Source: Hetaerina americana (taxonomy: Eukaryota; Arthropoda; Insecta; Odonata; Calopterygidae). From it: a stretch of 64,000 nt of DNA. This document shows positions 24,251-63,221 of the stretch, in pieces (position 1 is the first letter of the stretch; every line of letters begins with the position of its first letter). The notes beneath the pieces were generated by a model. The model ran no database searches and had not been told where the DNA came from. It saw only the letters and a program-made list of their open reading frames with translations. The stretch lies in the NCBI GenBank assembly GCA_022747635.1, contig JAKTNV010000005.1:39769738-39833737 (forward strand), read 5' to 3'. The position numbers and the translations under genes are program-made.

Positions 24251-24463
24251 TATAGTACAATACACAATATAGAAACACAAAAAAGAAGAAGAACTGCTGC
24301 TGAGACTGCTGAGCAGTCATTAATTCTATATCTTCAGATGAAGACGGATTGTTTCCGTCGAAATATCAAGAAATAACGTGTGAGGGTTCTTCTTTTTTTG
24401 TGTTTCCATATTGTGTATTACTGTGTATTGTACTATTCGGCACTTCCGTGTTACGTCTACGAA

Positions 24464-32981: not shown

Positions 32982-35950
32982 CTACACCAGGTCCCTCTTC
33001 ATCTCTGAGTACTTTCTTCCTACCTTCATCCCGTCCAACATCCCTATCCTGTTCCTTCCCTTTCCTCTTTTGCCCAACATTCTACCCTCTATCACAGTCT
33101 TCAACATCCCACTCCCGGTCAACACCCCCTTCATCCACTTTTCCTGCCTCCATAGGATTGCTCCCAACAAACCCCTCTCTTCGCCCACCATACCAAGTAC
33201 TTCCTCATTTGTTTTCTTCTCTGTCCATTTCACCTTCTCCATTCTTCTCCACACCCACATTTCAAAAGCCTTCAGTCTACGTCTATCCTCCTGCTTCAAT
33301 GACCACGTTTCCGCGCCGTACATAGCTACGCTCCATATCAAAGTTTTTACGAGTCTTTTCTTAACATCCTTACTCAAAGTCCCCGTCATCAACTCCCTCC
33401 TCCTCGTGAAAGCCTCTTTGCCTAGCGCAATTCTTCTCCTTACGTCCCTACTACTTTGACCGTGTTGGTCCAAATACTACCGAGATACGTAAACTGTTCT
33501 ACCTGCTCTATTTTTTGCACTCCTATTTTAATGTTAAGCTTGCCATTTTTCTTTCTAGAAAATCGCATAACCTTTGTTTTATTAATGTTGATTCTCATCC
33601 CATACCTGTCGCACTGAATTTCCAATTCACTCAGCAATGCTTGCAGCCCCTTGGCTGACTGACAAACTAAAGCTTGGTCATCAGCAAACCTAACTGATTT
33701 TACGAATTCCCCGCCCACTTTCATTCCTACCTCTAGTTCTTCCCATGCCTCTTTGATCATTTCCTCTGCATACAGGTTGAACAGCAACGGTGATAATGGG
33801 CAACCCTGCCTTACACCCTTCCTAACACTGCCCATCCTGATTCCCCGTTTCCCACCCGCACCTGAGCAGTCTGAGACATGTACAGGTTGCGGATTAGCCT
33901 CCTTTCCCTCCAATCTATTCCTATTTTCTGCAATATACTCATTAGTTTTTCCCAATTCACCCTATCAAACGCTTTTTCGAAATCTACGAAAAGGGCAAAT
34001 ACCTCCTGGTTGTGTTCTATATTCCTCTCGATTAATAACCTCATTACTGCAATGGCATCACGCGTACCTCTCCCCTTCCTAAACCCAAACTGATCATCCC
34101 CTAAGTAATCATTTGCCCTACTCTCTATCCGTTTGTTTATGATCCTGAGAACAACTTTAGCTGCGTGGGATATCAAACTAATTGTCCTATAGTCCTCACA
34201 TGGCGTGGCCTTTACCTTTTTCGGAATCGGAACTAAACTGCTCTCACAAAGTCTTCCGGCCAGATTCCCTCCTCATAAATGCTACGGATCAGCCCATATA
34301 GCCTCTTCCTCCCACATTTTCCTAAGCATTTTAAAAGTTCCACGGGAATGTTATCTACCCCCACGGCCATATTTAGTTTCATCTCCCTTAATGCCCTTTT
34401 TATCTCATTGTCTAGTATGCCTGGACCTAAGCTGTCTTCCTCTACGTCATTTTCTTTTTCAATGTCTGTGTTGGTCTGAGTTCTTTACTATACAGTTCTT
34501 CTATATACTCCTTCCATCTCTCTTGGATCTTTCCTGCGTCAACTATTACCTTACCCGCCTTATCTCTAACTGTTAGCATAGCTCTTCCTTTCTTACTTCC
34601 CGATAACGATTTAACTTTGCTGTACAGCGCACCGATTTCGCCCTTCCTCTGGAGACTTTCCATATCCTCGCACTGCGTCTTCCACCATGCTTCCTTTGCT
34701 TTATTTGTTGCCCGCCTCAATTTATTGTTCAATTCTTTGTACTTCATTTTGCCTAATTCTGTATTTATATTCTTCCATTTTCGCCGCTCATCCATTTTTG
34801 TAATCATCTCATCCGTGATCCATGGTTTACGAGTCCTTTTAGAGTTAACGGTTCCAATAGTGTCTTTTGCGGCTTTAGACAACCCTTTTTTGATCATTTC
34901 CCATTCTTCTTCGATAGTAATAAGCCCTTTACCATCCTCCATTATTTTCTCTACCGCCTGTTTGTATTCCTTCCTTTTCAACCCATTTAATGCTTCTACA
35001 TTCCATTTTCTAACTCGCCGCCCCTGCCTTATCTTTTTGAAACGGACGCTACATTTCATAACAACTAAATTGTGGTCTGAGTCCGCATCCGCTCCCGGAA
35101 AGCTGTGGGAATTTATCACACTATTCCTAAACCTGTGTCTAACCAGGATATAATCTAGCCGATATCTTCCTGTGTCACCTGGCATTTTCCATGTATACCT
35201 GCGTCTTTTGTGGTGTCTAAACCAAGTGTTGGTGATGACTAACCCCTGTCTCCTGCAGAACTCAACTGCTTTCTCCCCGCGGTCATTCCTCGTGCCTAAA
35301 CCGTAGTCGCCCACCTCATCACCATCTCTTCCTTCGCCTACCGTCGCATTCATATCCCCCATCACTATCAAATGTTTCCCTGCTGGAACACACGCGATCA
35401 TGTCCTCTAACTGATCGTATATCTTATCGACCTCTTCTTCCTTATGGTTGCTCGGTGGCATGTATACCTGAATAATAACTAAGTTCGTCGGTTCTGCTTT
35501 TATCTCCACTAGTAGTATTCTATCCGTTACCTGCTCTATGTTGACTACGCTTCTTCCTACCTCTTCATTTAATACTATGGCAACCCCTCGTTGGCTCTCG
35601 TCCCCACCGCTGTATATTATTCTATACTTATCACTCCAGTAATCCCCGCTATCTTTCCATCTCACCTCGCATAGACCTAAAATATCTATATTTCCCCTTT
35701 CCATCTCTCGCTTAACATTCTCCAATTTCCCTGTCCTCATCATTGTCCTAACATTCCACGTTCCTATTCTAACTAATTTTGCCTTCTTCTCCTGCGTCTT
35801 CTGTCCTGCTGCTGCTGGTTTTCCCTTGCAAGGGTTTCGTGGGATGACGACCGCGGAAGCCTTGCCTCCCCCGCTGCCGGGCACGACACACGGCCGATTG
35901 GGCCGAGCCCCGTGGTTGCCAGGACTCAAATGATCTCTATTGTCCATCAT
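32982..35950 (-). pseudogene. RTE ORF2 (endonuclease + reverse transcriptase), broken by four frameshifts
   Basis: The first 502 codons (35950-34442, starting ATGATG) are open and contain the complete endonuclease with TWNVRT, CEVRW, GDMNATVG and SDHNLVV motifs. Compared with the intact copy, small deletions near 34478, 34236, 33830 and 33475 split the rest into frames ending at 34442 and then 34176-33811, 33955-33440 and 33473-32982. These still encode the FVDFEKAFD block, GCPLSPLLFNLY, FADD, and the C-terminal WSLKQEDRRR region. Few other changes are seen, so the copy is recent. The endonuclease part could in principle still be made; a full reverse transcriptase could not. Confidence 0.93.
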
Positions 35951-36134
35951 ATTTTTCTAGGGAATGATAATTGAGGTGGTTTCCCGTTGCCTTCCTCAAT
36001 AGTGTTTTTAACGTGACACCATCACTTACTGGCCGCCCCACTGGGGTCAGACGCCATTGCAGCCGCCTCACTGAGGAACAGACGCTGCGTGGACTACCTT
36101 TCGTCTGGCTCCTAACCTTCGACCTATCTGGCAT
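35937..36134 (-). CDS. RTE small ORF1 (65 codons), second copy
   Basis: The frame starts at the ATG at 36134 ([10 protein letters not shown]) and ends at TAG at 35937. It is basic, Arg/Ser-rich and nearly identical to the ORF1 of the intact element, differing near its end (HSLEKYDGQ for HSQEQCDGQ). It overlaps the ORF2 start by 14 bases. RTE elements are known to carry a very short first frame of unclear function. Whether it is translated as a protein or serves as a leader for re-initiation on ORF2 cannot be told from sequence. Confidence 0.55.
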
Positions 36135-42946: not shown

Positions 42947-51750
<8,804 letters not shown>

Positions 51751-51751
51751 A

Positions 51752-51985
51752 TGCAACAATTTCAGAGTGTAAAAATCATTTTCCTTGACCGGGATTCGAA
51801 CCCGGATCCTCCAATGCCCGATTGAGTGATTTAGCCAGTTAAGCTATCGAAGCGTCCTCCTAAAAATTTCAGAGTTTAGGAGGACGCCGCGATAGCTTCA
51901 CTGGCTAAATCACTCAATCGGGCATTGGAGGACCTGGGTTCCAATCCTGGTCAAGGCGAATGATTTTTACACTGAAATTGTTGCA
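51752..51985. repeat. Palindrome of two head-to-head tRNA-like promoter units
   Basis: Left arm 51752-51864 and right arm 51875-51985 are inverted copies with a 10-base centre. The - strand of the left arm carries a polymerase III A box (TAGCTTAACTGG) and a perfect B box (GGTTCGAATCC). The + strand of the right arm carries matching blocks, the A box changed (TAGCTTCACTGG) and the B box with one change (GGTTCCAATCC). The unit resembles a tRNA in A-box and T-arm regions, but the 5' bases GGAGGAC do not pair with the 3' bases, so no normal acceptor stem forms. Transcription from each promoter would run outward. It looks like a SINE head duplicated in inverted orientation or a foldback element derived from one. 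Confidence 0.75.
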
Positions 51986-51989
51986 AGAG

Positions 51990-54900
51990 ATGAACCTTCC
52001 GGCCGAGGAGAGGGACTTCACTCTGTACACTCAGGATTCTCCTCGGTAATAGGGATCAAATCAGAAACTTTTGTGCATGGGAAGAAGACACGACAGACAA
52101 TTTGAGCGTTGGTGCGATCAGCGCATGCGCTTCCCACGCCAAGGACTCAGGCTCGACGACCTCAACAGACGGAATCCACTGTAATGCAGGCGTCCCAATT
52201 GATTTCATTTTTCGTGTAGGTGTGTAGATTCAGTCAACATTGGTTCGATTTAGGCAACATAGGTGCACTGAACCTTTCGTCGGGTGCGACGCCAAACTGT
52301 ACAACGTTACTTACTTAAAACCAATGGGCTGATTCTGACGCTGGGTTTCTGTACCAACCGACACACTTTTTTCTCATTTTTCAGCTATTTTAATGCACAA
52401 TCCAACAAGTACAAGTAAACTTTCATAATTTGTGAGCATTACATATACTGTCTACACATTAAATCGGAATGTACGTTGTGCATACCTTCCTCATTTTTAC
52501 TTGTAATGAAGAACTCAAGAATAGGAACTTTCAGATTTATTTGCAGCAAAATGATAAGCACATGCGAGAGACGATGGAAATGATTACCTCAATCGTATCC
52601 CAGATAATGCATTCAGAACAAAGTTCACGCGTCGATTGACCAAAATTTCGAGTAAAAATAGCAGCCACGGGTTTCGGGCCTAGGAGCAAATTAGCAGTCT
52701 CACCCCCCCCCCCCCCCAGGCCAACGCACGTCAAGTATAAGGCGCGTTGACCTACTGACCCGCGACGTGGAATGTTTCGTATCTAATTGAAACAAATGAA
52801 ACGGAAAGATTACCCCAATAACAATGGGAGCCCCTCAACTTACAGGAAAGACCATAGGAGACGACATCGGATGACATCCCCACCATGGAAACGCTCGCGC
52901 CGTTTAATGGGAGACCGTGGGTAGGGGTGCGCGGGTTCGACTCCATTGGAGGGACACTCAGATACACTCGGTTGGGGCGGGTAGAGAAAGACCTAGGCTG
53001 TGACAGGGAGGGGGGCGGCGGAGGAGGAAGACAGGGAGCCGACCACGCTTATCAGATATCGACCAAGGAGAAAACCACAAGTCCCTCTTGCCAGCCGAAG
53101 GGGGTGCGGAAGGCGGGGGGAGGAAGAGGGGGGGGAGACGAAAAGATGCCCGAAGGAGGAGGGGAAGCGCGGTACCCCGCGGAAAATGGAAATGGTCCGC
53201 AGGTGGAGAAGAGTGAGCGAGCGGGTGGGTGGAGAGGGAAAAGGTCGAGAAATAAAGACCCCACTGCGGAGGCTGAGTTTCGGGGGAGGGAGAGAGGAAG
53301 GAGAGTTGGTGGGGTGAGGAATGAGAGGATGAAGCGGGGTGCGAAGGAGCACGGGGGTGGGTGGGGTCAGGTAGAGTAGAAGGGGGATGGAGGTTGGAGG
53401 GGAGGGTTTGAGCTCCGTAAAAGGAGAGGATTAATTGATTCCTCGTTTTCCTCAGTTCTCCTCAAAAGCCCTTTGCCCCCGGGGACATGAATGCCTGTCG
53501 GTGACAGGGGTATGTGTTGAAGGTCTCCCTCCCTTTCTCTCTCTCGCTCTCTCCATCTCCCCACGGTCCTTCCCTTCACCGTCTGCGAGAGCGCGTGTAC
53601 GCCCGCGCTCTTTCTCATAATGGCAAGCTTGGTGGGGATGGGGAGAGAGACAGAGATGAAATTTATTTTCTATATATTAATTTTTAAGGAAGAGAGAAAA
53701 ATTGATTAGGGGGTACAGATGAAGGAGGACTGAAACGGCGCTTATTCTAGTGTGGACCACGTTTTCAAAAATTAAAGCACGGGAAAAGTGTAAAAGGAAA
53801 CGCCACCGGGGTAAATAGTTACTCATTTATTCCAACAGAGATGAGGATATTAATATTAAATGTGTGCATACATATGTTTATGTATGTATGAGTGTGTGTG
53901 TATATAGTATATATAAATGCATGTGTGTGTGCATATATATAATTATATGTATATGAGTGTGTGTGTGTGATTAACTTCCAGGAAATATCCCACCCTTCGC
54001 AATAACCCATGTGGAACAAATAAAGATGTTAACAGCAGATGATGAATTTTGGCAAACAGATTGAGATAATATTTGACTTTGGGGAACTAAAAAACAATTT
54101 AACACAATATTTTTTTCATGAATATGACCATTGATTTGGAGTATTTTGTATACATTTCGTAACATTAGTGACATACGGCCTCAGGATATTCACATCATTA
54201 GAACGGCATAAGAGATAATTGCAATTATATGTATGTAATGCGGTAAGGTTTCATGTAACCCAGTCTATAATTATCACCGCTTAAATTTAAACAATAGAAC
54301 AATTTCACTAGTTATAGTGCTCTAAGTTAGCGCCAATTTGTGCAACAAAAATGTTTGGAAAACAATATTGGAGTACAGATATAGGGTAATGGAATATTGC
54401 TTGATGATGAAGAATCATCAAGCAATGATGAAGCTTGATGATGAAGAATCATTCTTTCCCCGAACAATCAGAAATCATAATAGTAAGAAACCGAAGTCAC
54501 TTTAGAAATATTAAAAACGTTGAATTTACAAGTCGGAACAAAATTAAACACTATAGAGATGTTAGGTATACTTTCAGGTGCATGCGTATGTTAGTTGGTA
54601 GTTTGAGTGTTTGCATGTGTGTGGGGTGTAAGTGTTCATGCATGAATGTATGCCATGTTTTTTTTTGGTATATGATTTTGTGATTATTGCATGCGGTTTT
54701 TTTTTCTTTTTCCTTTCTAAATTACGGGTGGTGTCCTAACACCCCCCGCCACACGCCCTTGCGGCGGCTTGCGGGGTATTGAGTAGATGTAGATGAATCG
54801 ATTCGAGGTAAGGTATAAATATATAGTAATTATTTGTTTCTTCTCTTTTCAATAAAAATGATATGTACATGATAATATAAAAATAGATATTTCTTGTCAG

Positions 54901-57535
54901 GGGTTTCATTTCTAATCTTTTTCTTTTTGAATTTTTATTTCTGAATATTTATTCTACAAATATGATCTCCAACTCGAGCAATGAATTGAGCCATAAATAG
55001 AGCAGCACTGCATGATTCTAACATGACGTTTATGGATACATTAGCGCTGTCATGGCTTAATTAGGCTAATAGCCTATCGTGACTAAACAACATCCACGGC
55101 ATTAAAAAAATAAGTGCAACTCGACAATTATCCAACCTTTCCATATGCATAGCAGCCATATTAGAAAAAAATATCAAAGGAAATACTCCAGAGAGGGAAT
55201 ATAAAACCGCACCTTGCCCTAGTATTATATTTTAAAAACAATGCCATGATGACAGGTTAAAAAAAGCATGCCACAATAAAAATGTATGCGTTGTTCTTTG
55301 TTAATATTGCTTTTCTTATCCCACGAAACAGTCCACTTGTATTGCACCAGATCGAATTCTTTTACCACTTTAGAACCGCTCACTTCTCCAGAGGTCTACC
55401 GCGTATTAAATATTCGCCCTCGATCACTCGTCGCTCACCTTCCATGGTGACCCGTTGAATGAGAAACTGGAATTTTGCAAAAGAAGTCTTTAAAAGGGTA
55501 ATTTATTAAGATAATGAAAATATTATTCACGTTTAAATGTAATTAGAGATGTACAAAGGTGTATGATATACGCTTATTCACCAAGGAATCCTTTTATTTC
55601 GTTAAATCCTTTAAGCCCATCCAAATAGTCACAAAACGACACGATGTTGATTTTTATCTAGAGTAATTTGGGAATGTGTGATTGATAATTAAAAAAATTT
55701 ACGTTCCGTTGATATCAATTAAAGACAACCCAGAACATTCCTCCGGAGATTTATAGACCAATGTTGAACAACAATTAGTTGAAGAAAAGACCCCATTATG
55801 TTTCTAAGATTTGGGATGACCCCGGGTATTTATTCTTTACGATCAGTCACCTTCTGCCATTCCCATTAGAGCGAATTACAACTTTAAAATCTGCCACTCA
55901 TCACGAATGCTTATTATCCAGTTCATTTTCAAGAGGGTATTCCGCATGTCAATTAATATCGCACAACACACGGACGGGCGACTCATTCGAGGGAGTTAAC
56001 CCGGTAAAATCCTCCCTGCCTTCAACAAAAGTGGCGGATAGGTGACTTCGGACAGGGAATGTGAGGTACGAGGCAGACCGAGGGCGGCGCCAGGAGCGTT
56101 GTGCGGGGGTGGAAGCGAAGGGGAGAGGGGAGCGAATGCACGGAGCGACACTAGTGGTGGTCGGGATGAAGAAGTGGAGCAAGGACGCGTGCCTGCCTGC
56201 CTGCTCTCCTCATTTTATCTGTGCGCATTGTTTACTCACCGGCCCCAAACCTCTTCTCCCCTATCGCCGCCCACTCTCCCCGCAAACCCCCACACCGAGA
56301 CCTCACCCTTTCCGTCGCCCTCGCGAAACCCCGTTGAACTATTGCCTCTCCAATACACCAACTGCCAGAGGGGATGACGGAAAAAGAGAGGAGGGACAAG
56401 CCACGGTTGAGACGACGAGCGCGACATGGGATGTGTACGCACATCTAGGCGCTATTGGTTTAAGTACGTATGTTGTATAAGCGGACTTGCTCAAGCAATC
56501 ACTCACCATATCGAAAAACAATGAGCTGCACCGCGGTGGAAAGATGGTATTAAGAAGCGATGGAATCCTCCACAGCATCGAACTCTCGAATTTTGCCAAC
56601 GGGCGATATTAAGTAAAAGTACTGTCGTTTTGTCACAATCTACTCAAAGGAGGACAAATATAAATAGTTTTCCTTAGGTGAGCAGATTATATTTAAAGAA
56701 GACGTTGAAGCGGCAAAATTGCATCATGAAGGCGCAAAGAAGATGCCCCACGAAATGCTATGAATATCAGAACTTTTAGCAAAAAAGATGAAATGATTCG
56801 GCTAATATTGGGAGTACCCAGAATCAATTTTCAAAAAGAGTGTTCATGTCATCTGGTTGCTGTAATTAAAAAACGAGGCTCATGAAGCATTGAAAAACGT
56901 TTATTAATTCTCAAATTAGTTTCAAAATAATTGAAGAGAGAAAAAATGACTAGACTGAAAAAATCTTAATCCTCTCCTGATTTGAAAAATAACCTCTGTA
57001 AAGCATCTGTGCCATATTACTTCGTTTAATCAGATATGTAAACATTTACAATTTTTCATGGTAAAAATTATGCAAATCGCAATCTAATCGAGAAAAAGTC
57101 ACCATTAATGTAATTTAGAACAAATGAAATCTTTTTTGAAATTTAAATGTGTTTTGCCACACTATCGTAAATTAATTCCTTTTGAAATTCATTACAGCGA
57201 AAATAATAAATGTAGAAAAAACGCCAGAAGATCCTCCGAGGAAATATGAATGTAAATATGTGCATTACGTGCATGCAAAAATGTAAAATATCAAAAATAC
57301 AAGGCTACCTCCTCTCAGTAATAACATTAAAGAAATTAGCGAATAAATCAACACGCAAGAAACTCTATAGTATTTCATAGTCGGCGGCGTATTATAAGAT
57401 TTTTCATGCACACCGGACACACGGTACATAGATTCCTTAAGCATGAACATTTTCAAATGAATAGCAACTTATTATAGGCATTTAGTTTTCTCTCATAAAA
57501 ATTGGAAGGTGAAGGAATAATCACACTTTGGTTGA
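51990..57535. other. Unique region with purine-rich and CpG-rich patches, no supportable gene
   Basis: A C-run of about 15 lies at 52705-52719. The + strand is almost all A and G over long parts of 52980-53400 and becomes CT-rich at about 53520-53590; a TG/CA-type microsatellite lies at 53870-53970. A CpG-rich patch lies at about 56040-56440. Frames of 100-164 codons in these patches (52885-53379, 56042-56480) are Gly/Arg/Glu- or Pro-rich and overlap on both strands, which is expected from composition alone. Confidence 0.4.
54396..54452. repeat. Short perfect hairpin plus direct repeat
   Basis: ATTGCTTGATGAT (54396-54408) and ATCATCAAGCAAT (54414-54426) are perfect inverted copies around GAAGA. 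A 20-base unit starting GCTTGATGATGAAG occurs at 54399 and again, exactly, at 54433. Confidence 0.9.
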
Positions 57536-57536
57536 A

Positions 57537-57738
57537 TAATTAAATGAAGAATACAATGTATCTTTCCACTGTCTTTTATTCACGTACAAACAGTTTCAAC
57601 GCTCAAGCGTCATCATCAGGTTCCTTCTGATAGTACTACCTACTACTATTAGTACCTGATGATGACGCTTGAGCGTTGAAACTGGTTGTACGTGAATAAA
57701 ATAGAGTGGAAAGATACATTGTATTCTTCATTTAATTA
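57537..57738 (+). mobile_element. Palindromic element with outward-facing hammerhead motifs (Penelope-like, non-autonomous)
   Basis: The 202-bp element is an almost complete palindrome. The left end TAATTAAATGAAGAATAC matches the right end GTATTCTTCATTTAATTA exactly, and the two arms match through 57613 and from 57655 with few differences around a ~40-base centre rich in TAC/TACTA. Each arm contains a hammerhead core, one per strand. The + strand core is complete (57647-57698); the - strand core keeps CTGATGA, stem II and GAAA but has weaker stem I and III. No protein is encoded. Hammerheads of this form are known in Penelope-like retroelements; a palindromic unit of this kind could come from joined inverted termini. 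Confidence 0.65.
57647..57698 (+). ncRNA. Type I hammerhead ribozyme candidate with intact core
   Basis: Reading 5' to 3': TATT-A-GTAC (stem I, 57647-57655), core CTGATGA (57656-57662), stem II GACGC/GCGTT with loop TTGA (57664-57677, one G-U pair), GAAA (57678-57681), a two-base-pair stem III (A-C against G-T), cleavage-position T at 57687, then GTAC (57688-57691) pairing with the first GTAC, an internal loop GTG, and AATA (57695-57698) pairing with TATT. All constant core positions are present. Very short stem III is typical of Penelope-type hammerheads, which tend to act as dimers. Predicted cleavage is after 57687. Activity has not been shown. Confidence 0.65.
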
Positions 57739-57739
57739 A

Positions 57740-58552
57740 AATGAATTTCCACAAAGTTGAGCCGGAAAGAATTGAATATTTTGGTTGAATAGTTATGTTT
57801 GTGAGGGAGGTTAGGGGGATGACATTACGTAAGAAATTTTCCTCGTCTTTGAATCTATATGACTAAACATTCTCCGATTAAATCAATTAGTACGCATAAA
57901 ATCGTTCTTTGAAAAGCAAGCGTCCCGACAAACAAAGGTAGCTTGCCTCCTACTGAGCACAAATTGGGCAGAGCAGCATGATGAAATTTTTTAATAATAA
58001 ATATAACATTCCTTTATCAATATTTTTCTGACTTCTAAGAAACTAGGAAAACAGATGAATAATGGTGATATGCCATGTGCTGATGGATACTAAAAAAATG
58101 ATTAATGCAATCATTATTGCGTATTTCAAAATTGCAAACTGTAGATGAACTACATATATCATTTGACGAGAGTGTTTCTAAGGAAGAGTAAGAGAAAATT
58201 AAATTACTTGGAAATTATATTTCTCAAAAAAAAACAGCAAGACTCAAAAGATTACGGCTTTGTGGCAACGCTTTGGTTAGTATACCTAATTTCATAGAGT
58301 TCGTGTGGTTTAGCCTTTATTCAATTTTTTTTTATTTCTATACACACGTAGGGTCATAATTTTAGTTCGCCAATCTTTATTTGCCCGCACACTGTCATTA
58401 TTATCCTAGCAGTAATATTTACCTACCTAAACATAGTATTTCCGATACCTGTTACAATCACGGGGGCTATAGGTTTGGTCAATTACTCATTGTGTCAGGG
58501 ATTGTACAGTTATTACGAATATTATTGCTGGATGCATTCTCTAGGTGATCGG
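57740..58552. other. AT-rich unique DNA
   Basis: No gene, RNA or repeat that I can support. Confidence 0.5.
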
Positions 58553-60061: not shown

Positions 60062-63034
60062 CTATATCAGGTCCCTCTTCATCTCTGAGTACTTCCTTCC
60101 TCCCTTCATCCCGTCCAACAACCCTATCCTGTTCCTTCCCTTTCCTCTTTTGCCCAACATTCTACCCTCTATCACAGTCTTCAACATCCCACTGCCGGTC
60201 AACACCCCCTTCATCCACTTTTCCTGCCTCCATAGGATTGCTCCCAACAAACCCCTCTCTTCGCCCACCATACCAAGTACTTCCTCATTTGTTTTCTTCT
60301 CTGTCCATTTCACCTTCTCCATTCTTCTCCACACCCACATTTCAAAAGCCTCCAATCTACGTCTATCCTCCTGCTTCAATGACCACGTTTCCGCTCCGTA
60401 CATAGCTACGCTCCATATCAAAGTTTTTACGAGTCTTTTCTTAACATCCTTACTCAAAGTCCCTGTCATCAACTCCCTCCTCCTTGTGAAAGCCTCTTTG
60501 CCTAGCGCAATTCTTCTCCTTACGTCCCTACTACTTTGACCGTGTTGGTCCAAAACACTACCGAGATACGTAAACTGTTCTACCTGCTCTAGCTTTTGCC
60601 CTCCTATTTTAATGTTAAGCTTGGCCTTTTTCTTTCTAGAAAATCGCATAACCTTTGTTTTATTAATATTGATTCTCATCCCATACCTGTCGCACTGAAT
60701 ATCCAATTCACTAAGCAATGCTTGCAGCCCCTTGGCTGACTGACAAACTAAAGCTTGGTCATCAGCAAACCTAACTGATTTTACGAATTCCCCGCCCACT
60801 TTCATTCCTACCTCGAGTTCTTCCCATGCCTCTTTGATCATTTCTTCTGCGTACAGGTTGAACAGCAACGGTGATAATGGGCAACCCTGCCTTACACCCC
60901 TTCCTAACACTGCCCATCCTGACTCCCCGTTTCCCACCCTCACCTGAGCAGTCTGAGACATGTACAGGTTGCGGATTAGCCTCCTTTCCCTCCAATCTAT
61001 TCCTATTTTCTGCAATATACTCATTAGTTTTTCCCAATTTACTCTATCAAACGCTTTTTCGAAATCTACGAAACAGGCAAATACCTCCTGGTTGTGTTCT
61101 ATATTCCTCTCGATTAATAATCTCATTACTGCAATGGCATCACGCGTACCTCTCCCCTTCCTAAACCCAAACTGATCATCCCCTAAGTAATCATTTGCCC
61201 TACTCTCTATCCTTTTGTTTATGATCCTGAGAACAACCTTAGCTGCGTGGGATATCAAACTAATTGTCCTATAGTCCTCACATGACGTGGCCTTTACCTT
61301 TTTCGGAATAGGAACTAAAACTGATCTCACAAAGTCTTCCGGCCAGATTCCCTCCTCATAAATACTACGGATCAGCCCATATAGCCTCTTCCTCCCACAT
61401 TTTCCCAAGCATTTCAAAAGTTCCACGGGAATGTTATCTACCCCCACGGCCTTATTTAGTTTCATCTCCCTTAATGCCCTTTCTATCTCATTGTCTAGTA
61501 TGCCTGGACCTAAGCTATCTTCCTCTACGTCATGTTCCTTTTCAATGTCTAACTTTGTTGGTCTAAGCTCTTTACTATACAGGTCTTCTACATATTCCTT
61601 CCATCTCTCTTGGATCTTTCCTGCGTCAACTATTACCTTACCGGCCTTATCTCTAACTGCTATCGTTGATCTCCCTTTCTTACTTCCCGATAAAGATTTA
61701 ACTATGCTGTAAAGCGCACCGATTTCCCCCTTCCTCTGCAGACTTTCCATATTCTCGCACTGCGTCTTCCACCATGCTTCCTTTGCTTTATTTGTTACCC
61801 GCCTCAATTTATTGTTCAATTCTTTGTACTTCATTTTGCCTAATTCTGTATTTATATTCTTCCATTTTCGCCGCTCATCCATTTTTGTAATCCTCTCATC
61901 CGTGATCCATGGTTTACGAGTCCTTTTAGCGTTAACGGTTCCAATAGTGTCTTTTGCCGCTTTAGACAACCCTTTTTTGATACATTCCCATTTTTCTTCA
62001 ATAGTACTTAGCTCTTTACCGTCCTCCATGATTTTCTCTACCGCCTGTTTGTATTCCTTTCTTTTCAACCCATTTAATGCTTCTACATTCCATTTTCTAA
62101 CTCGCCGCCCCTGCCTTATCTTTTTAAAACGTACGCTACATTTCATAACAACTAAATTGTGGTCTGAGTCCGCATCCGCTCCCGGGAAGCTGTGGGAATT
62201 TATCACACTGTTCCTAAACCTGTGTCTAACCAGGATATAATCTAGCTGATATCTTCCCGAGTCACCTGGCATTTTCCATGTATACCTGCGTCTTTTGTGG
62301 TGTCTGAACCAAGTGTTGGTGATAACTAACCCCTGTCTCCTGCAGAACTCAACTGCTTTCTCCCCGCGGTCATTCCTCGTGCCTAAACCGTAGTCCCCCA
62401 CCTCATCACCATCTCTTCCTTCGCCTACTGTCGCATTCCAATCCCCCATCACTATCAAATGTTTCCCTGCAGGAACACATGCAATCATGTCCTCTAACTG
62501 ATCGTATATCCTATCGACCTCTTCTTCCTTATGGTTGCTCGGTGGCATGTATACCTGGATAATAACTAAGTTCGTCGGTTCTGCTTTTATCTCCACTATT
62601 AGTATTCTATCCGTTACCTGCTCTATGTTGACTACGCTTCTTCCTACCTCTTCATTTAATACTATGGCGACCCCTCGTTGGCTCTCGTCCCCACCGCTGT
62701 ATATTATTCTATACTTATCACTCCAGTAATCCCCGCTATCTTTCCATCTCACCTCGCATAGACCTAAAATATCTATATTTCCCCTTTCCATCTCTCGCTT
62801 AACATTCTCCAATTTCCCCGTCCTCATCATTGTCCTAACATTCCACGTTCCTATTCTAACTAATTTGGTCTTCTTCTCCTGCGTCTTCTGTCCTGCTGCT
62901 GCTGGTTTTCCCTTGCAAGGGTTTCGTGGGATGACGACCGCGGAAGCCTTGCCTCCCCCGCTGCCGGGCACGACACACGGCCGATTGGGCCGAGCCCCGT
63001 GGTTGCCAGGACTCAAAATATCTCTATTGTCCAT
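60062..63034 (-). CDS. RTE ORF2 polyprotein: apurinic-like endonuclease and reverse transcriptase
   Basis: The 990-residue protein nicks target DNA and reverse-transcribes the element RNA from the nick. I start it at the ATG at 63034, which overlaps the end of ORF1; the codon before it is GTG. Residues ~58-300 form the endonuclease: GTWNVRT (N65), CEVRW (E94), MGDWNATVG (D198, N200), RYQLDYILV and SDHNLVV (D291, H292). A basic linker follows. The reverse transcriptase at ~520-830 has DYRTISLIS, FVDFEKAFDRVNW (catalytic D657), GVRQGCPLSPLLFNLY, FADD (756-759, catalytic pair) and NKTKVM, then FTYLGS. The C-terminus holds MYGAETWSLKQEDRRR and WVWRRM, typical of RTE/BovB proteins. No stop or missing catalytic residue is seen, so the protein could be functional. 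Confidence 0.95.
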   Translation of the reverse strand: MDNRDILSPGNHGARPNRPCVVPGSGGGKASAVVIPRNPCKGKPAAAGQKTQEKKTKLVRIGTWNVRTMMRTGKLENVKREMERGNIDILGLCEVRWKDSGDYWSDKYRIIYSGGDESQRGVAIVLNEEVGRSVVNIEQVTDRILIVEIKAEPTNLVIIQVYMPPSNHKEEEVDRIYDQLEDMIACVPAGKHLIVMGDWNATVGEGRDGDEVGDYGLGTRNDRGEKAVEFCRRQGLVITNTWFRHHKRRRYTWKMPGDSGRYQLDYILVRHRFRNSVINSHSFPGADADSDHNLVVMKCSVRFKKIRQGRRVRKWNVEALNGLKRKEYKQAVEKIMEDGKELSTIEEKWECIKKGLSKAAKDTIGTVNAKRTRKPWITDERITKMDERRKWKNINTELGKMKYKELNNKLRRVTNKAKEAWWKTQCENMESLQRKGEIGALYSIVKSLSGSKKGRSTIAVRDKAGKVIVDAGKIQERWKEYVEDLYSKELRPTKLDIEKEHDVEEDSLGPGILDNEIERALREMKLNKAVGVDNIPVELLKCLGKCGRKRLYGLIRSIYEEGIWPEDFVRSVLVPIPKKVKATSCEDYRTISLISHAAKVVLRIINKRIESRANDYLGDDQFGFRKGRGTRDAIAVMRLLIERNIEHNQEVFACFVDFEKAFDRVNWEKLMSILQKIGIDWRERRLIRNLYMSQTAQVRVGNGESGWAVLGRGVRQGCPLSPLLFNLYAEEMIKEAWEELEVGMKVGGEFVKSVRFADDQALVCQSAKGLQALLSELDIQCDRYGMRININKTKVMRFSRKKKAKLNIKIGGQKLEQVEQFTYLGSVLDQHGQSSRDVRRRIALGKEAFTRRRELMTGTLSKDVKKRLVKTLIWSVAMYGAETWSLKQEDRRRLEAFEMWVWRRMEKVKWTEKKTNEEVLGMVGEERGLLGAILWRQEKWMKGVLTGSGMLKTVIEGRMLGKRGKGRNRIGLLDGMKGGRKYSEMKRDLI

Positions 63035-63221
63035 CACATTGTTCTTGGGAATGATAATTGAGGTGGTTTCCCGTTGCCTTCCTCAATAGTGTTTTTAACG
63101 TGACACCATCACTTACTGGCCGCCCCACTGGGGTCAGACGCCATTGCAGCCGCCTCACTGAGGAACAGACGCTGCGTGGACTACCTTTCGTCTGGCTCCT
63201 AACCTTCGACCTATCTGGCAT
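63024..63221 (-). CDS. RTE small ORF1 (65 codons)
   Basis: The frame starts at the ATG at 63221 ([10 protein letters not shown]) and ends with TAG at 63024, 11 bases into ORF2. It is basic (Arg/Lys) with [14 protein letters not shown] and no recognised domain. A very similar frame exists in the copy at 35937-36134 and, fused to ORF2, in the old copy at 11943. Its retention suggests a product or a role in ORF2 re-initiation. Short overlapping first frames are known in RTE elements. An in-frame TTG further upstream could lengthen it by seven codons, but ATG is the more likely start. Confidence 0.55.

Follow-up and report, generated by a model that had tools for sequence, protein, structure and literature searches.

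A palindromic, hammerhead-bearing insertion in Hetaerina americana and its relation to Penelope-like elements

A palindrome of about 200 bp on contig JAKTNV010000005.1 of Hetaerina americana (assembly GCA_022747635.1) carries the core of a hammerhead ribozyme in one arm and the same core, inverted, in the other, with no reverse transcriptase (RT) of its own. What kind of element is this, how could such a palindrome be made, and what is the place of the hammerhead in it? The palindrome lies in a stretch of 64,000 nucleotides (positions 39,769,738 to 39,833,737 of the contig), which is called the window here and whose own numbering is used throughout. Such palindromes bear on the origin of the inverted pseudo-LTRs (pLTRs) and one-sided tails of Penelope-like elements (PLEs) and on the role of PLE hammerheads, subjects treated in the available sections of PMC3846280, PMC7761336 and PMC11167929. 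With many short insertions from a single family, the sequence itself can speak to both subjects, as the arm ends may point to the 5' end of the RNA, the duplication to the stagger of the cut, the rule of one tail to a different priming of the two ends, while the centre may be a record of how cDNAs were joined. Having many copies in one genome, we may gain clues to how PLEs insert.

Extent of the element, its copies and its relatives

The inverted arms (57537-57621 and 57654-57738) are 85 nt each, 96% complementary and 32 nt apart, as an earlier note on this DNA had described, and the whole palindrome folds as RNA into a hairpin (MFE -138.7 kcal/mol, z -28.9). The limits given in that note, 57537 to 57738, hold for the palindrome but not for the element, to which the tail at 57739-57779 and the target-site duplications also belong: a direct repeat of 16 nt with one mismatch (12 exact) brackets the palindrome plus the 41-nt tail, not the palindrome alone. 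The full element is 57539-57779 (about 240 bp) and consists of an inverted arm, a copy-specific centre, a direct arm and a non-palindromic tail (Table 1), with the outer TAATTA of the left arm overlapping the left duplication. An open reading frame with RT and GIY-YIG is not present in the window copy, where 241 bp is too short for one and no listed frame overlaps.

Table 1. Parts of the palindromic element and its flanks, in window positions.
Feature	Position	Strand	Remarks
Left target-site duplication, TTTGGTTGAATA	57527..57538		12 bp exact, 15/16 if extended; control of own against mismatched flanks
Left arm, inverted pLTR fragment without tail	57539..57621	-	Homologous to PLE pLTR
Left-arm hammerhead core	57584..57623	-	Helices I and III imperfect in the window copy; 13.8 bits (model R1)
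Copy-specific centre, presumed joint of two cDNAs	57622..57653		
Right-arm hammerhead motif	57652..57691	+	Stem I GTAC/GTAC, core, extra U, stem II, GAAA, stem III, U17
Right arm, direct pLTR fragment	57654..57738	+	Homology to PLE-2 3' pLTR and L199 arms
Tail outside the palindrome	57739..57779	+	ATG at 57741 reads MNFHKVEPERIEY, like PLE ORF starts
Right target-site duplication	57780..57791		12 bp

A search of the insect's own genome (1.63 Gb, 1580 contigs), with a query that included the tail, gave 1667 first-look candidates, of which 40 were scored and all of these fetched (L097-L136). Matches on both strands, extending into the tail that the query itself contained, were obtained for all 40, and this genome-wide look for the same palindromic layout found palindrome and tail kept in every copy fetched. 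Since L111 is nearly identical to L110, it was left out, so that 39 copies with 78 arms were counted. In 28 of the 39 copies the two flanks share an exact direct repeat of 9 bp or longer, which in 18 of these copies is 12 bp; of 1895 mismatched pairs of flanks, taken as a control, 9 share a repeat of this length. The exact repeats of the other 11 copies are shorter than 9 bp, several of these having a longer repeat with one mismatch (28 loci compared). Exact matches to the 27-mer of the core number 683 in the own genome, and there is none to the reversed control. Among 100 of the 683 sites that were listed, neighbours within 1.3 kb are arranged (-,+) in 16 cases, (+,-) in none and on the same strand in one. 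The gaps of these 16 listed (-,+) pairs range from 4 to 1203 nt, two of them being 4 nt, as annealing between two GTAC tetramers would leave.

A profile search of the genome with GIY-YIG (PF01541) gave 136 matches among the 150 scored of 3696 candidates, many of them lying in (-,+) neighbours and in frames some hundreds of residues long, and twelve loci were examined at length (L167-L178). The family PLE-1 has open frames that code for RVT_1 and GIY-YIG and reach 851 aa, occurs in tandem and head-to-head copies, and has in its pLTRs hammerhead cores with the same extra U as the window copy; RVT_1 and GIY-YIG were found in the ORFs of both PLE-1 and PLE-2 (three tested). PLE-1 matches the window arm over the core only, while positions 57648-57779, i.e., arm and tail, align end to end with the 3' pLTR of PLE-2 at five loci (in L173-L177) with 69-72% identity. 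Much closer arms, up to 99% identical to the window arm, came from an arm-only search of the genome (40 scored of 825 candidates). One of the loci, L199, has a pair of arms 2 kb apart, to both of which the right arm of the window is 97.7% identical, and between them RT/EN coding sequence that is decayed, in two pieces, and 40-51% identical to PLE-1 and PLE-2. Other longer head-to-head copies also have RT/GIY-YIG coding between arms of the same kind, and the tail, read as MNFHKVEPERIEY, resembles the PLE ORF starts MLCKFHKVTPETTNF and MDIKYFHEVKPETIEY.

Termini homologous to pLTRs, a tail running into the first codons of the ORF and a short target-site duplication are thus all found, and the sequence identifies the window element as an insertion without ORF that belongs to one of the host's own PLE families and is made of two head-to-head pLTR fragments and a one-sided tail. 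It is filed here as a PLE-derived insertion and not as a complete PLE, because no RT/GIY-YIG ORF lies inside, although relatives with homologous arms have it. The hint of the earlier note at Penelope-like retroelements is confirmed by arms that match the 3' pLTR of RT/GIY-YIG-coding PLEs, but its description of a free-standing unit with no reverse transcriptase mistook the kind of element, which is the shortest form of head-to-head PLE insertions. Separately, the PLE-1 copies L167-L169, L172 and L178 are very alike, the arms of single insertions being 99.4-100% identical, and this near-identity suggests recent activity.

The hammerhead core in the window, across copies and in covariance searches

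On the + strand, CTGATGA stands at 57656-57662, GAAA begins at 57678 and U17 is at 57687, with a cut predicted after this position; the helices are a stem II of 5 bp, a stem III of 2 bp and a stem I of GTAC/GTAC. Of the complete core claimed before, the constant blocks and stems II and III stand as described, but the extra U between A9 and stem II, the G-U closing pair of stem II and the loop of 2 nt on stem III are departures from that description. The right arm fits the pattern CUGANGA ... GAAA with three helices, in a minimal form with a 2-bp helix III, and to this extent the earlier note was right to read a ribozyme here. Within the window, zero-mismatch cores with such a stem occur only in the two arms. 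By chance, such a core was seen 0 times in 30 simulated windows of order-2 Markov sequence, and 0.18 times per window when the rule was relaxed (5 bp, GC content left free) and the sequence was of order 1. Stems I and III no worse than those of the + strand core are found in 3.3% of random flanks. The core blocks are present in the left arm too (- strand), where the helix test gave no valid arrangement of stems I and III, so the left arm is not an equivalent ribozyme; the proposal that RNA of either strand could hold a ribozyme keeps its basis in a core in both arms, but all three helices are present on the + strand only.

When two short right-arm RNAs were folded alone, they were no more stable than shuffles and their MFE structure was not a hammerhead. 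With the complementary arm, the core forms a predicted duplex of -66 kcal/mol, and in this folding model the core in the RNA of the finished palindrome is buried in a long hairpin; self-cleavage of a full-length transcript of either strand is unlikely, because the antisense arm sits on the same RNA. A start of the arms at the ribozyme cleavage site was considered and rejected, as the ribozyme lies entirely inside the arms, which start some 36 nt upstream of the cut.

A loss of the core from other copies, which the earlier note had named as evidence against its proposal, is not what is seen: both core blocks are kept in 60 of the 78 arms, and all tested hammerhead features in 44 of 78 (in both arms of 15 copies, one arm of 14 and neither arm of 10). 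Between family A, PLE-1, PLE-2 and PLE-3, a few families compared without statistical control, stem I varies at pair 3 (TA/CG) and pair 4 (GC/TA, with an unpaired CT in PLE-1), and stem II at pair 2 (AT/CG) and pair 5 (CG/TA/AT), changes of letter that would be in keeping with the helices. For helix III and its loop, the sequence met most often in the family is ACTAGT, which is self-complementary and would suit a dimeric hammerhead. Minimal PLE hammerheads were reportedly described by Cervera and de la Pena in 2014 and by Luense et al. in 2017. Dimeric cleavage of PLE hammerheads is cited in the available part of PMC7761336.

Covariance models add little. With Rfam at gathering and E-value thresholds no hammerhead was found on the window element, the result that the earlier note had set against its own proposal; it says little, because viral contigs with hammerhead candidates are also missed by these models. 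With Rfam 15, nothing came above threshold in ten viral contigs that have candidates with the same extra U, no hammerhead family was found in L038 in a scan up to E 10, and the sole hits in L024, RAGATH-1 (32 bits) and type III (16 bits), fell below their cut-offs. We also built a model (R1) from 15 of 18 viral extra-U hammerheads first aligned, leaving out L056 and L085 (misaligned at the 3' side) and L026 (a near-duplicate). The right arm scores 21.6 bits with R1 and the left arm 13.8, but this score alone proves little, because another site in the window reaches 21.7 bits and sites from viruses and bacteria, chosen beforehand for having the core pattern, score as high as 20-22 bits; the best site without such preselection has 16.7 bits in 618,360 bases. 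Of the core-pattern scans, two gave 0 stretches and the others 6 bacterial and 90 viral ones, and a scan with an arm-end pattern gave 0 stretches. Compared with those 96 loci, the window arm matches the core alone (28 nt in L006), and no relative of the element is among them.

The viral sequences with a U between CUGAUGA and stem II form a hammerhead-like class in their own right (L010, L011, L015, L016, L023, L024, L038, L039, L050, L051, L061, L082, L084, L089 and L091), with 97.6% of cells paired and a covariation of 0.561 against 0.164 when shuffled. Six of these 15 contigs are among the ten in which Rfam 15 found nothing above threshold.

Arms, centres and tails, and the possible origin of the palindrome

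Non-consensus letters are mirrored between the two arms of a copy: 70 such letters were counted, where shuffles gave 15.4 +/- 5.0 and none of 2000 came as high. The consensus of the left arms equals that of the right arms at all of 87 positions, so the two arms seem to have been made from one source at each insertion. Against this, divergence within a copy, 7.0%, is not much lower than the 10.5-10.6% between copies, and the nearest-neighbour arm is the mate in only 15 of 78 cases. The centres mostly differ from copy to copy; at least 10 nt are in common in 41 of 666 copy pairs, a sharing that stems partly from upstream PLE sequence inside the centres, and a 7-mer of the ribozyme region lies inside the centre in 17 of 39 copies, compared with 8.6% of shuffles. 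Mirrored arms together with copy-specific centres fit two newly made cDNAs that were joined end to end.

The inner arm ends were placed by comparing the 78 arms with the PLE-A upstream sequence. In 38 arms the end lies exactly 4 nt before the core, in 58 it lies within 6 nt of it, and none lies beyond 27 nt. By an extension score, 20 of 78 arms run at least 7 nt upstream of the core, and 14 at least 9 nt, so not every cDNA stops at one point. At a distance of 29-40 nt upstream of the core, a TATA begins in 6 of 9 sites of family A (the remaining three of the nine do not have the upstream sequence), 29 of 30 of PLE-1, 14 of 14 of PLE-2 and the single site of PLE-3, which amount to 8, 8, 6 and 1 distinct 60-mers, i.e., few independent cases; its first T stands at -34/-32, -33, -40/-37/-35 and -34, respectively. 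From the TATA spacing and the arm ends, we infer an mRNA start at or near the 5' edge of the ribozyme, about 30 nt below the TATA, and the ribozyme would then be a 5' leader of the PLE mRNA.

Fifteen head-to-head insertions of PLE-1 were looked at, four of which were not evaluable since one end lay outside the stretch or was of another family. All 11 others have exactly one tail (tail identity 1.00), and their duplications are 12 bp exact in nine cases and 13 and 15 in the other two. The arm-only search gave five distinct family-A loci of which both ends are visible (L199, L200, L201, L203 and L206), when L202, a twin of L201, and L204 and L205, with one end only, are set aside, and each of the five also has exactly one tail. 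The exact flank repeats here are 14 in L201, 10 in L206, 8 in L200 and 7 in L203, the flank of L199 being too short. Sixteen one-tail cases out of 16 would be very unlikely if the start sites were chosen freely, and the two ends therefore seem to be coordinated.

For the element as a whole, the explanation that we consider probable is a PLE insertion in which strong-stop cDNAs were made from both sides of the target and joined head-to-head. The identity of the element is given by sequence, and its mechanism is put together as follows. Transcription of the PLE mRNA would be driven by the TATA and begin right where the hammerhead has its 5' edge, and the PLE protein would cut both target strands with a stagger of 12 nt; cleavage and extension of both target strands by a PLE protein, and a tail that is the stretch between two RT start sites, are described in the available text of PMC11167929. 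From each target end, reverse transcription would be primed internally on the RNA, at the ORF start or close to it, one end using the start site after the tail and the other the site before it. If priming took place at the 5'-proximal copy of this region, a cDNA of about 87 nt (no tail) or 128 nt (tail) would reach the 5' end of the RNA, i.e., a strong stop. The two cDNAs would be joined at their 3' ends, perhaps often via the self-complementary GTAC of stem I, with filler. The hammerhead would be carried along as the first 40 nt of the mRNA and, once the palindrome is complete, would be locked in the hairpin. More tentatively, and with somewhat more doubt than belief, we propose for the copies in general that they are frozen strong-stop products, with ends primed from different start sites and joined via the stem-I tetramer, that the hammerhead stands at the mRNA start of the PLE families seen in this genome as a 5'-leader element, and that the copies spread as by-products of failed full-length insertion.

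A non-autonomous, SINE-like family, in which the palindrome or one arm is transcribed from master loci and mobilised in trans by PLE proteins, would account for the many copies of similar size, for variants that L117, L129 and L131 have in common in both arms, and for the copy pairs that share at least 10 nt of their centres (41 of 666). We regard it as unlikely, because most centres are copy-specific and the arms are mirrored, so that the palindrome itself is seemingly not what is copied, and because the longer PLE copy L199 bears the same arms, so that a separate family is not needed. Self-priming, in which one cDNA folds back and copies itself into an inverted arm, has been proposed, on an antisense template, for palindromes of rotifer PLEs in the available part of PMC3846280. 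An arm copied back in this manner should bear the tail as well, but the tail is one-ended in 11 of 11 PLE-1 and 5 of 5 family-A loci, and arms of one insertion are often unequal in length; even with near-perfect inverted arms, short centres and the ribozyme-region 7-mer in 17 of 39 centres (8.6% of shuffles), snap-back appears quite improbable.

It is hardly credible that the element is a foldback or MITE-type DNA transposon that resembles a hammerhead by chance, since the right duplication lies 41 nt beyond the end of the palindrome, past the tail, the arms and tail are PLE sequence, and the core is common to RT/EN-coding PLEs; long terminal inverted repeats, small size and many copies are what such a transposon would share with it. 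As for a functional pair of opposed ribozymes, one per strand and selected as such, 15 of 39 copies do keep all tested features in both arms, but 14 keep them in one arm (in the window copy, the right arm only) and 10 in neither, and RNA from either strand has the complementary arm on it as well, with which the core would form the duplex of -66 kcal/mol, for which reasons we give this idea next to no credence.

Comparison with known systems and further features of the window

Among the closest known counterparts of the element are the rotifer Pen families, PLEs with inverted pLTRs. According to the available sections of PMC3846280, these have an inverted pLTR beside a direct one in head-to-head arrangement with palindromes at the inverted junction, an optional 31-bp tail on one inverted pLTR that runs into the ORF start, a short target-site duplication and a putative TATA box in the pLTR, all of which are alike here. 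The same sections describe an ORF or captured host DNA between the pLTRs, whereas here there are two pLTR fragments only, and duplications of 8-10 bp as against 12 bp here; inner ends at the ribozyme are a feature of the present copies, unlike the rotifer families as described there. Solo pLTRs are mentioned for rotifer Pen in these sections, and short palindromes of two pLTR fragments are not (PMC3846280).

The Poseidon PLE of Anolis (PAc), an in vitro system, is alike in that its hammerhead lies where pLTR and ORF meet, RT is initiated internally within the beginning of the ORF, both target strands are cut and extended, the tail is the stretch between two RT start sites and the targets are AT-rich, as far as the available text of PMC11167929 goes. 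Its main RT start is 111-118 bp into the ORF, whereas here the tail stops 39 nt past the A of the ATG, and within the same text no joined palindromic product is described and no strand difference is reported (PMC11167929).

Metazoan non-LTR retrozymes, in the available part of PMC7229834, are likewise small and non-coding, have hammerheads of type I and are suggested to use PLE or LINE machinery, but they are short tandem repeats with canonical hammerheads and circular RNA, while the present element is an inverted pair with a minimal hammerhead. A metazoan retrozyme was rejected for this element, as there are no tandem direct repeats with a canonical type I hammerhead but an inverted pair instead. 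Minimal hammerheads with a short helix III are dispersed by the thousands in animal genomes and in PLE pseudo-LTRs, and are suggested to cleave as dimers, in the available sections of PMC7761336, which say nothing of a palindromic layout or of its boundaries. Among the titles and beginnings of abstracts listed by an open library on palindromic, inverted and non-autonomous PLEs and on priming, none describes strong-stop palindromes; the parts are known, and the combination and its mechanistic reading seem new.

The window holds two more inverted repeats. One, at 24259-24419, has arms of about 35 nt, is flanked by AT microsatellites and gave no match among the loci compared; in its loop lies a hammerhead-like core, CAGATGA-a-GACGGA..TCCGTC-GAAA, in which U4 is changed to A and which is the site with 21.7 bits in model R1. 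The other, at 51738-51998, has arms of about 125 nt that look tRNA-like by eye. ARAGORN called no tRNA in it, and neither a hammerhead core in it nor a direct repeat at its flanks was found; similar palindromes are present in L131, L138 and L168. Finally, a retroelement with endonuclease and RVT_1 is present in two copies, 60062-63082 and 33440-35956, both on the - strand and with AT repeats nearby, one of which is an open frame of 1006 aa.
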